A stretch of 10,073 bases of DNA from NCBI GenBank assembly GCA_029288115.1, contig JARFPV010000490.1, positions 1 through 10,073 of the forward strand, read 5' to 3'. Source of the DNA: Akkermansiaceae bacterium. GTDB taxonomy: Bacteria > Verrucomicrobiota > Verrucomicrobiia > Verrucomicrobiales > Akkermansiaceae. Position 1 is the first letter of the stretch. Each line of letters begins with the position of its first letter. Below the pieces are notes generated by a model. It was given only the letters and a program-made list of their open reading frames with translations. It was not told where the DNA came from and searched no databases. The translations under genes were made by a program, and so were the position numbers. This document shows, piece after piece, positions 7,818 through 10,012 of the stretch.

Positions 7818-7851
7818 AAAAAACACGCCGACTGCATAAGGCAGCGGCGTG
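7818..7851 (-). terminator. intrinsic terminator of the HMA-domain gene
   Basis: Read on the minus strand, CACGCCG plus CTGC (7851-7841) pairs with GCAG plus CGGCGTG (7835-7824) around the loop CTTAT, with one bulged T (7831). A run of six T follows (7823-7818). This GC-rich stem plus T-tract is a textbook Rho-independent terminator and sits about 20 bp after the TAA of the HMA gene. An apparently intact terminator argues that the gene is expressed as its own unit. Confidence 0.88.
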
Positions 7852-7873
7852 CTTGTGAAAAGCTATGCTTTGG

Positions 7874-8209
7874 TTAGCTGGCGGAAGCGCCGAAACCGGC
7901 GGCCTTGACGGCCTTGATCAAGTCTTCGGTTTTGACATTCTTACCTGCTGTAACGACGGCTTTGTCTGGCATGCTAACCTCGGCTTTGGAAACGCCTGTG
8001 ACTCCTTCAAGTGCGGACCGCACTTTTTTAGCGCAGGACTTGCCTCACCGCATGCCTGTGATCTTTAGGTTGATAGTCTTGGTTTCAGCTTCCTCTGCTT
8101 TTACCTCGGTGGGTGCTTGTGCATTTCCTGATGTATCGCCAGCGATGACGATGCCCAGAGGAAGGGCGGCCACGGCACATAGGCCCATTAGTTTGGTTGT
8201 TTTTTTCAT
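7874..8209 (-). CDS. secreted heavy-metal-associated (HMA/MerP-like) protein with in-frame TGA; candidate selenoprotein
   Basis: An ATG-started frame of 111 residues if the TGA at 8047-8045 (codon 55) is read through. The N-terminus MKKTTKLMGLCAVAALPLG looks like a signal peptide, possibly cut near NAQA (about 29-32), so the product should be periplasmic or membrane-anchored. A ferredoxin-like HMA domain follows: INLKITGMR, then TGA, then GKSCAKKVRSALEGVTGV, AEVSMPDKAVV and a closing IKAVKAAGFGAS. In HMA proteins the GMxC cysteine and a second cysteine 3-4 residues on bind Cu(I), Hg(II) or similar ions. Here the TGA falls exactly on the first of these and C59 is the second, giving a UxxxC spacing. 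The frame is otherwise undamaged up to TAA. Alternatives: a Cys-to-stop pseudogene, or a sequencing error. Read as a plain stop, the product is 54 residues with no metal site. The gene is downstream of the flavoprotein gene but separated by 178 bp that include a repeat. No Shine-Dalgarno is evident. Confidence 0.75.
8009..8025 (-). promoter_or_regulatory. SECIS-like hairpin downstream of the in-frame TGA
   Basis: On the minus strand AAGTGCG (8025-8019) pairs perfectly with CGCACTT (8015-8009) around the loop GTC; opening the top C-G pair gives the loop GGTCC. There are 26 nt between the TGA and the first loop base. Bacterial SECIS elements are stem-loops in the coding region just after the UGA, with a G at the start of the apical loop. 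The E. coli fdhF element has a GGUC apical loop closed by UGC/GCA, which is very similar. Against it, there is no bulged U in the stem like the one E. coli SelB uses, and the lower stem is poor. Confidence 0.45.
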
Positions 8210-8303: not shown

Positions 8304-8395
8304 AAAAGTAGGACAAGATTACATCTTGTCGGCAACCATCGCTGCATATCCTTTGTCCAAAGCCTGTCGACAGCTTACAAAGCTGTCCTACTTTT
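8304..8395. repeat. 92-bp structured repeat with 12-bp terminal inverted repeats (type C)
   Basis: The ends AAAAGTAGGACA (8304-8315) and TGTCCTACTTTT (8384-8395) are perfect inverted repeats. Inside are two perfect 8-bp hairpins: GACAAGAT, loop TAC, ATCTTGTC (8312-8330) and GACAGCTT, loop ACA, AAGCTGTC (8369-8387). GGCAACCATCG (8331-8341) is the reverse complement of the core of copies A and B and likewise abuts a hairpin. The right end overlaps the last codons and TAG stop of the flavoprotein gene. Because the terminal arms overlap the hairpin arms, two alternative folds are possible. It is probably a related REP-like element; mobility by a RAYT-type transposase is speculation. Confidence 0.85.
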
Positions 8396-9617
8396 CGGCA
8401 ATGGCTAGACCGGCGAGGCGACCTCCAGTCCAGGCGTTCTGGAAGTTGAAACCACCTGTGATGCCATCGATATCCAGAACTTCGCCGGCGAAGTAGAGCC
8501 CAGGGAGCAGTTTGCTTTCCATGGTTTTCAAGTTCACGTCCTTGAGTGACACACCTCCGCAGGTGACGAATTCGTCCTTGTTGGTGCTTTTTGAGGAAAC
8601 CTGATACCTGCCACGAGTGAGTTCGGTGGTAAGCTTTTGGGTGGTTTCCTTGCCGAGTTGCGACCAGATGCAATCTGCGGAAACTTCAGCCGCATCACAG
8701 AGTCTCTGCCATAGTCGCTTCGGGATATTGTCAAATGGCGCCTGACTGCGTACCTGTCTTTTCCCCCAAGTTTGGCGTGTGCTGGTGAGTATGGCTGCAG
8801 CGTCTTGGCCCGGAATCCAGTTCACTGTGATTGTGAAACGGTAGTTGCTGGCGTGTAGTTCACGTGCTCCCCATGCGGAGAGTTTGAGAATTCCCGGGCC
8901 GCTCAGGCCATGATGGGTGATGAGCAGCGGGCCATTCGCAGTGAGCTTCATGCCCTCGACGGTGACTTCCGAATCAGGGACTGATACGCCGGGTAGGTCA
9001 TCGATGCGTGGGTCGTCGATATTAAAGGCGAACAGCGAGGGGACGTCAGCGATCAGTTTGTGACCAAGAGATTGTGCGAGTCTGGCACCGGCGGCGAGAC
9101 GAGTTCCACCAGTAGCTAACAGAACGGATGATGCAGGCAGTTCTTCCCCTTGCCCGGTTACGAGATGGAAACTATTTTTAGTTTCATCGTGTGTGATTGA
9201 TTCTACAGCTGTGGATGTGCGTATTGCCACACCGGCATTTTCAGCTGCAGTTGTCAGGCAGTTAATGATCGTTTGGGAATCATCTGTGACGGGAAACATC
9301 CTGCCGTCCTTTTCCGTTTTTAGGTTTACGCCACGTTGTTCAAACCAGGCTACTGTGTCCGCCGCTCCCCAGCGATGCAGCGGCCCAATCAGTGACTTGC
9401 TCCCTCTTGGGTAATTGTTAGCAAGCTCCCTCGGGTCGGCGCAGTCATGGGTGACATTACAGCGGCCACCACCGGAAATTTTTACTTTGCCTAATACGTG
9501 AGCTGTTTTTTCCAAAATGAGCACTCGCAAGCCGGGACGTGATTCCGCAGCCGTGATGGCGGCGAAAAATCCAGCGGCGCCACCGCCAACAACAATCAGA
9601 TCCCATGAGTCTGACAT
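8388..9617 (-). CDS. YhiN/HI0933-family FAD-dependent oxidoreductase-like protein
   Basis: A 409-residue cytoplasmic flavoprotein of the HI0933/YhiN family (aminoacetone oxidase-like FAD-binding enzymes); the physiological substrate is not established for most members. Visible motifs: dinucleotide-binding GGGAAG at 11-16 ending the first strand, with the acidic E36 after the second strand; the family signature KISGGGRCNVTH (46-57); ATGGTRLAAG near the middle; and the C-terminal FAGEVLDIDG (376-385) followed by GGFNFQNAW (388-396), which closes the FAD site. Length is normal for the family and no motif is broken. The ATG overlaps the TGA of the gene upstream (TGATG). A strong GAGGAGG (9631-9625) lies 7 nt before it, within the upstream coding sequence, so translation is coupled. 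Its TAG stop falls within the 8304-8395 repeat. Confidence 0.95.
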   Translation of the reverse strand: MSDSWDLIVVGGGAAGFFAAITAAESRPGLRVLILEKTAHVLGKVKISGGGRCNVTHDCADPRELANNYPRGSKSLIGPLHRWGAADTVAWFEQRGVNLKTEKDGRMFPVTDDSQTIINCLTTAAENAGVAIRTSTAVESITHDETKNSFHLVTGQGEELPASSVLLATGGTRLAAGARLAQSLGHKLIADVPSLFAFNIDDPRIDDLPGVSVPDSEVTVEGMKLTANGPLLITHHGLSGPGILKLSAWGARELHASNYRFTITVNWIPGQDAAAILTSTRQTWGKRQVRSQAPFDNIPKRLWQRLCDAAEVSADCIWSQLGKETTQKLTTELTRGRYQVSSKSTNKDEFVTCGGVSLKDVNLKTMESKLLPGLYFAGEVLDIDGITGGFNFQNAWTGGRLAGLAIAEK

Positions 9618-10012
9618 CAGACGTCCTCCTCAAGCTCGAACTCTGCCCAGGCAATGGATTCGTTGAGTTCCTTCACCGCGCTGTCAATGAGTAGTTCGAG
9701 ATCGGGTTCTTTACCCTCGCAATTGAACGCGAGCAGGGGACCGCCGTGTTCAACCTCGGGCGGATCCTTATCCACGCCTGACTCACGCACTTGAAACCAG
9801 TCGAGAATGCCTTCGCCGGTCTCTGGGAGCCACTGAACAATCAACTCGATGGTTGCCACTGGGTCATCATCGCCAAGCTCTCGCTGGTTCGCCATATCCT
9901 CGTCATCACAATCGATGCCGGCAAGTGCTTCAAGCTGTGTGTCGTCCTTACGGCCGTCGAGCGATGCCTCGATTTTCTGGAAAACAGCGTCCCTGGTGGA
10001 AATGATTCTCAT
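9617..10012 (-). CDS. small acidic protein of unknown function, coupled to the flavoprotein gene
   Basis: I do not recognise a family. The 131 residues are strongly acidic, with clusters such as DCDDED and ELGDDDP and an EFELEEDV end. There is no signal peptide, membrane helix or cysteine-pair motif, so it should be a soluble cytoplasmic protein. The middle (ATIELIVQWLPETGEGILDWFQVRE) looks folded, with alternating hydrophobics and three tryptophans in the full chain. The stop codon overlaps the next start (TGATG) and the coding region supplies that gene's Shine-Dalgarno, good evidence that this frame is really translated. It is the first gene of the pair; the start ATG has no obvious Shine-Dalgarno (preceded by CAACAAC). 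Confidence 0.75.
   Translation of the reverse strand: MRIISTRDAVFQKIEASLDGRKDDTQLEALAGIDCDDEDMANQRELGDDDPVATIELIVQWLPETGEGILDWFQVRESGVDKDPPEVEHGGPLLAFNCEGKEPDLELLIDSAVKELNESIAWAEFELEEDV

Follow-up and report, generated by a model that had tools for sequence, protein, structure and literature searches.

Does the in-frame TGA at codon 55 of a small HMA gene mark a broken gene, end a short peptide or encode selenocysteine (Sec)? The question arises in a window of 10,073 nucleotides, the whole stretch of DNA that was analysed, from the draft genome of an Akkermansiaceae bacterium (3.17 Mb in 710 contigs, 81% complete). The initial annotation had proposed a candidate selenoprotein here, with coordinates that hold and a strand left unstated; the gene lies on the minus strand and runs from 8209 to 7874 (Table 1). 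Translation of the window reproduces the frame that had been described, from ATG to TAA with a sole TGA at codon 55, and when this TGA is read as Sec the site reads ITGMR-U-GKSC. The TGA does occupy the position of a metal-site cysteine, as had been read from a GMxC motif; the spacing is UxxxC and not the usual GMxCxxC, a departure that had gone unremarked. The HMA domain was said to be intact past the TGA, and with the TGA entered as Cys it is matched by Pfam PF00403 over the cut-off (E 2.1e-9, 38.1 bits against 24.8). The signal peptide said to precede it is likewise apparent by eye at the N-terminus, and the protein is probably exported; the N-termini of some relatives look like those of lipoproteins. 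As the remaining main frames, five in all, stop at TAA (one), TAG (three) or TGA (one, 9617–10012, with no Pfam match), there is no sign of a general code change in the window. The comparisons described below indicate that this small HMA protein very probably contains Sec in its metal-binding site.

Table 1. Positions of the gene, its predicted elements and its neighbours in the window.
Feature	Position	Strand	Details or basis
HMA selenoprotein CDS (predicted)	7874..8209	-	ATG to TAA, 111 residues, Sec at 55
UGA codon 55, read as selenocysteine	8045..8047	-	conservation in relatives
Conserved Cys of UxxxC, TGC codon 59	8033..8035	-	coordinates by arithmetic
Probable signal peptide, about residues 1-23	8141..8209	-	by eye
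HMA domain, residues 48-106	7892..8068	-	Pfam PF00403
Putative SECIS apical hairpin, six pairs	8010..8024	-	+24..+38 from U of UGA
Apical loop GUC, conserved G at +30	8016..8018	-	54-site comparison
Probable intrinsic terminator hairpin, then T run	7821..7854	-	fold test
Upstream neighbour, HI0933-like flavoprotein	8388..9617	-	window family scan

The UGA is strictly conserved in close relatives. The gene occurs in 10 of the 14 genomes of the genus, its own included, each copy having exactly one TGA, and no match to it was obtained at E 0.001 in the remaining four (G002, G007, G012 and G013). When the 14 domains found by homology (10 from the genus, three from G053 and one from G014) are aligned by codon, one column is TGA in all rows. 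Across the order, a profile of 24 members run against 386 genomes at E 1e-8 returned 85 matches, the best 53 of which (39 genomes) contain exactly one TGA each, where the initial annotation had named frameshifts or other stops in relatives as contrary evidence. The remaining 32 contain no stop, and all rank below the 53. A sample of the class (384 genomes, E 1e-12) adds two UGA members outside the order, in G884 and G814. The phylum sample (387 genomes, searched with the first profile at E 1e-6) gave chiefly matches with no stop, many of them in long frames, together with eight matches in genomes other than the window's that read through at least one TGA, at E 5e-10 or weaker. Relatives with Cys at the Sec site are found as well: four class-level relatives (L184, L185, L186 and L188) and the database protein P0005 have CxxxC spacing, and a Cys peptide pattern scan of genome contigs, which finds Cys forms only, gave 12 CxxxC loci, nine titled Bacteroidota and three uncultured bacterium. 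The comparison at codon 55 that had been suggested with the initial annotation accordingly returns TGA in the genus and Cys in the class-level sisters.

Substitution rates on the two sides of the TGA, also put forward there as a check, are indicative of purifying selection past it. In the 45 pairwise comparisons among the 10 genus sequences (three nearly identical), pooled dN/dS is 0.36 in the N-terminus, 0.12 in the 11 codons ahead of the UGA, 0.21 over all codons after it and 0.16 beyond the hairpin described next. The region past the TGA evolves as protein.

A hairpin follows the UGA at a fixed distance. With the U of UGA numbered +1, the 14 homology-found sites have the form AGUGC[G/A]-loop-[C/U]GCACU at +24 to +38, in which the loop at +30 to +32 is GUC, GUU or GGC. 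Over 54 UxxxC sites from 40 genomes, 319 of 324 stem cells are paired (six of six pairs at 49 sites, five of six at the other 5), and the apical base at +30 is G in 54/54. These 54 sites were found by protein profiles, those of G010 and G014 outside the order sample, and three of them were read from loci fetched by a pattern search; 69 frames had passed a loose filter, from which non-HMA frames and G685 were excluded. The pattern search itself (23 of 386 genomes, with 0 for the reversed-pattern control in the rows listed) was kept out of the pairing claim because its pattern contains the stem; 12 of the 24 members of the order-wide profile had first come from it. Cys-type HMA controls in the same codon register (n=24, fetched loci) form 2 to 4 of the six pairs. 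The four class-level Cys sisters form 2–3 and are without the hairpin; the class-level UGA members L182 and L183 form all six in the hairpin register.

The pair +29:+33 is AU at 40 sites, GC at 10 and GU at 4, and the pair +26:+36 is UA at 52 and CG at 2, both sides having changed; the Val codon in the hairpin is GTG in 52/54, the two exceptions carrying the compensating change. Formal covariation is modest, with 16 of 500 shuffles reaching the score over 13 distinct homology-found rows, in which five of the six pairs are invariant. The frozen synonymous sites are stronger evidence for a SECIS element than covariation. In the 14-domain codon alignment, pS is 0.199 in the hairpin codons (U+7 to U+12) versus 0.660 beyond; the hairpin codons for Lys (AAA), Val (GTG) and Ala (GCA) are each invariant in 14/14, and conserved valines beyond the hairpin, taken together, make use of all four codons. 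RNA element and protein core lie on the same codons, a clear example of selection for RNA and for protein acting on one stretch. The hairpin region of the window folded alone is not significant (z -0.82, 39/200 shuffles as good), and no Rfam match was obtained in the window at gathering level. A similar apical sequence, GGTCT from +22, lies 3' of the Sec codon of Escherichia coli fdhF. Taken across sites, the comparison supports a role of the hairpin in directing UGA recoding as a SECIS element.

Several members of the wider set differ from this pattern in their own ways. Two adjoining copies of the gene are present in G668. The locus L124 (G053:C31) encodes a protein of two domains, each with its own UGA and hairpin, which is likely a double-Sec protein, and the frame upstream of it contains additional TGA codons. 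At L020 (G001:C130), the gene seems to end at a second TGA, four codons ahead of a TAG, and UGA may there be used as both Sec codon and stop. The frame of L123 (G466:C126) departs from the HMA pattern past the SECIS, as a result of a frameshift or an assembly error. Two TGA-containing HMA-like proteins have UxxC spacing, namely L031 (G022:C3:592378-592605), with a differing hairpin, and L177 (G685:C23), with a hairpin three bases closer to the UGA; G022 was excluded from the alignments on account of its site and hairpin.

The genome possesses most of the machinery for Sec. As had been advised with the initial annotation, we searched for its components, and SelA (397 bits, cut-off 22.8), SelB (318 bits, cut-off 242) and SelD (367 bits, cut-off 125) all exceed their cut-offs; neither the tRNA-Sec model nor the tRNA-Sec of G003 as DNA query revealed a tRNA-Sec in the draft, which is 81% complete. 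Five matches to the model in this genome fall below the cut-off and coincide with tRNAs for Gln, Gly and Leu (three). The SelD gene (G000:C489:5316-6242, L133) has one in-frame TGA of its own, in the context CAG-U-ASKL, followed by a hairpin with the loop GTT, and SelD is likely a second selenoprotein of the genome. In the genus, tRNA-Sec is over the cut-off in 9 of the 14 genomes and is confirmed by ARAGORN in all 6 of these nine that were passed to it, as it is in G014 and G053; partial matches come from G010 and from G004, there at the end of a contig, and tRNA-Sec was likewise not found in G005 and G009. Over 58 relatives, SelA is present in 10 of the 12 that carry the UxxxC gene and in 21 of the 46 that do not (p 0.025, with G022 scored as gene absent for its UxxC site), an association that is moderate only. 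Two carriers of the gene, G006 and G010, gave no SelA match; both have a SelD with TGA and a tRNA-Sec or partial match.

In public protein sets the gene is represented in pieces. Ordinary gene calling had been predicted to yield a 54-residue stub or nothing, and the public entry for the product (P0089) is of exactly this length. Relatives are represented by C-terminal fragments, some of them under the names copper ATPase, CopZ, heavy-metal-associated domain-containing and hypothetical protein. Inspection of 26 of the 120 listed database proteins revealed Trp at the Sec site in four, P0002, P0003, P0004 and P0020, the last of which represents 43 sequences. P0003 is identical to the G011 frame except at this Trp, where the G011 codon is TGA, and its Trp can therefore be ascribed to translation; in all four proteins Trp probably comes from translation with TGA=W. 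A further entry, P0025, matches the G001 sequence past its start.

The comparisons support decoding of the UGA at codon 55 as Sec by SelB and tRNA-Sec, with insertion directed by the SECIS hairpin, the stem of which begins 20 bases past the UGA. The candidate selenoprotein of the initial annotation is supported by the conserved UGA, the hairpin, the SelA, SelB and SelD genes and the Cys sisters; the reservation made there, that the gene might be a pseudogene, is contradicted by how well the UGA is conserved and by dN/dS. A TGC or TGT mutated or misread to TGA has in its favour that TGA is one base from a Cys codon and that the draft is in 710 contigs. Yet TGA stands at the same codon in 10/10 genus copies, one TGA is present in 53/53 of the best order matches, dN/dS is about 0.2 past the TGA, and an identical error across 39 genomes is not credible, so that the chance of a pseudogene or a sequencing error is vanishingly small. 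A reading in which UGA is decoded as another amino acid (e.g. Trp, as in code 4), or is read through unspecifically with no selenium involved, could draw on the four Trp-containing database proteins and on the lack of a tRNA-Sec hit in this genome. It is very unlikely in view of the conserved SECIS-like hairpin and the Sec machinery present, of sisters that have Cys and not Trp, and of the origin of the Trp in P0003. The UGA might finally be a genuine stop, with a 54-residue exported peptide as the product and the remainder untranslated. UGA recoding is expected to be partial, leaving a truncated stub alongside the full-length product, so a stub should form under Sec decoding too; the protein-level constraint and the intact fold past the UGA nonetheless make a true stop extremely improbable. 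For Sec recoding, a value of 30–40% is given in PMC4513850.

Seven of the 10 genus loci have, by eye, an upstream flavoprotein frame similar to that of the window; among the three without it, L023 shows other frames there, and in L022 and L024 a contig edge lies close by on that side. Inspection of 13 + 15 loci by eye revealed no adjoining gene for metal transport or of the mer type, in which neighbouring frames were judged on their first 110–120 residues, the family scan being confined to the window; the neighbouring frames, judged by eye outside the window, gave no functional lead. The terminator that the initial annotation had placed downstream is probably the G+C-rich hairpin that comes after the stop codon and is trailed by a run of T (fold z -4.2, 0/200 shuffles as good); this hairpin is absent from the list returned by a consensus terminator scan of the window. 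The gap between the flavoprotein and selenoprotein genes (8304–8395) has a 12-base inverted repeat at its edges, found by eye, AAAAGTAGGACA / TGTCCTACTTTT, and holds two terminator-like hairpins; it is perhaps a small repeat element.

As no adjoining metal gene stood out, the metal role of the protein rests on its fold. A structure model, for which the window protein was aligned with 39 database proteins and Sec was entered as Cys, has pLDDT >=90 at 62 of 111 residues and <50 in the stretches 6–21 and 23–39. Residues 43–110 follow the ferredoxin-like order strand-helix-strand-strand-helix-strand, and the two best PDB fold matches are the HMA domain of a plant copper-ATPase and, second, MerP (1osd). 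Alignment to HMA proteins reveals that the standard CxxC metal motif is absent and that UxxxC, with one residue more between the ligands, stands in its place. The product would be an exported single-domain HMA protein with Sec as the first metal-site residue, the ferredoxin-like domain of which may offer a selenolate and a thiolate on the HMA metal-binding loop; a soft metal ion, e.g. Cu(I), Hg(II) or Ag(I), would then be bound outside the cytoplasm by a scavenger or carrier. We infer this function as a soft-metal scavenger or carrier outside the cytoplasm with a modest lean in its favour.

A selenoprotein in which UxxxC is a redox centre and not a metal site, forming a selenenyl-sulfide in a reductase or an antioxidant, is the chief alternative. 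Characterised selenoproteins are mostly thioredoxin-like with a redox motif, according to PMC13188914, the additional residue deviates from the CxxC metal loop, and the neighbourhood inspected by eye has no recognised metal gene. The HMA fold, with MerP and copper domains as its best matches, speaks against a redox centre, which we consider the less likely of the two. The full metal-site proposal holds that an order-wide and so far unrecognised family of exported selenoproteins uses Sec as a permanent metal ligand and not as a redox catalyst, that CxxC has been re-tuned to UxxxC, and that soft metals are captured extracytoplasmically, with adjoining duplicate genes and a two-domain, two-Sec form in the family; in its entirety we regard it as evenly poised between right and wrong.

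These results add a selenoprotein subfamily that occurs in 39 of the 386 genomes sampled from a single bacterial order and whose public entries are stubs, C-terminal fragments or translations with Trp. With Sec in a metal-binding and not obviously catalytic site, a shifted spacing and CxxxC sisters for comparison, the contribution of selenium to metal binding would become testable.

Among known systems, 119 selenoprotein families or subfamilies are counted in PMC13188914, where a differing Sec motif within one architecture counts as a distinct subfamily. The catalogue rows consulted in that paper list UxxU and UxxC and contain no metal-type selenoprotein with UxxxC. The open-licence literature that was consulted, which lacks most subscription journals, yielded no HMA selenoprotein with UxxxC and, among the papers listed, no use of the term UXXXC. 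The UxxxC protein is a new subfamily among the known HMA-type selenoproteins, of which UxxU and UxxC forms are known. The protein family NF041115 (UxxU_metal_bind), a type that Table 1 of PMC13188914 describes as a putative mercuric reductase with UxxU and 2 Sec, likewise has an HMA-type domain that carries Sec at its metal site, and matches residues 41–109 with 49.6 bits; the window protein falls under its cut-off of 95 bits, has one Sec instead of two in a UxxxC motif and is apparently exported. The same table lists a Sec-containing cation-transporting ATPase E1-E2 with UxxC and a putative mercuric transport protein with C/SxxU, both of them metal-transport selenoproteins with Sec in place of Cys; by their names they are membrane transporters, with other spacing; it is the table descriptions that set them apart. 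The match to the NCBIfam MerT/CopZ selenoprotein model is under its cut-off. CopZ (NF047957, 57.8 bits, cut-off 85) and MerP (TIGR02052, 39.7 bits, cut-off 92.55) share the HMA fold, but both matches are under the cut-off and both families have CxxC where the window protein has UxxxC. Two MerP selenoprotein sequences from the GOS metagenome, for which Table 2 of PMC2398784 prints no motif, are alike by name alone, as MerP-like Sec proteins. HMA proteins with CxxxC, from this class and from Bacteroidota, differ in having Cys for Sec and, in the four class-level cases tested, no SECIS hairpin, and they share with the UxxxC protein the equal, longer spacing and an apparent export.
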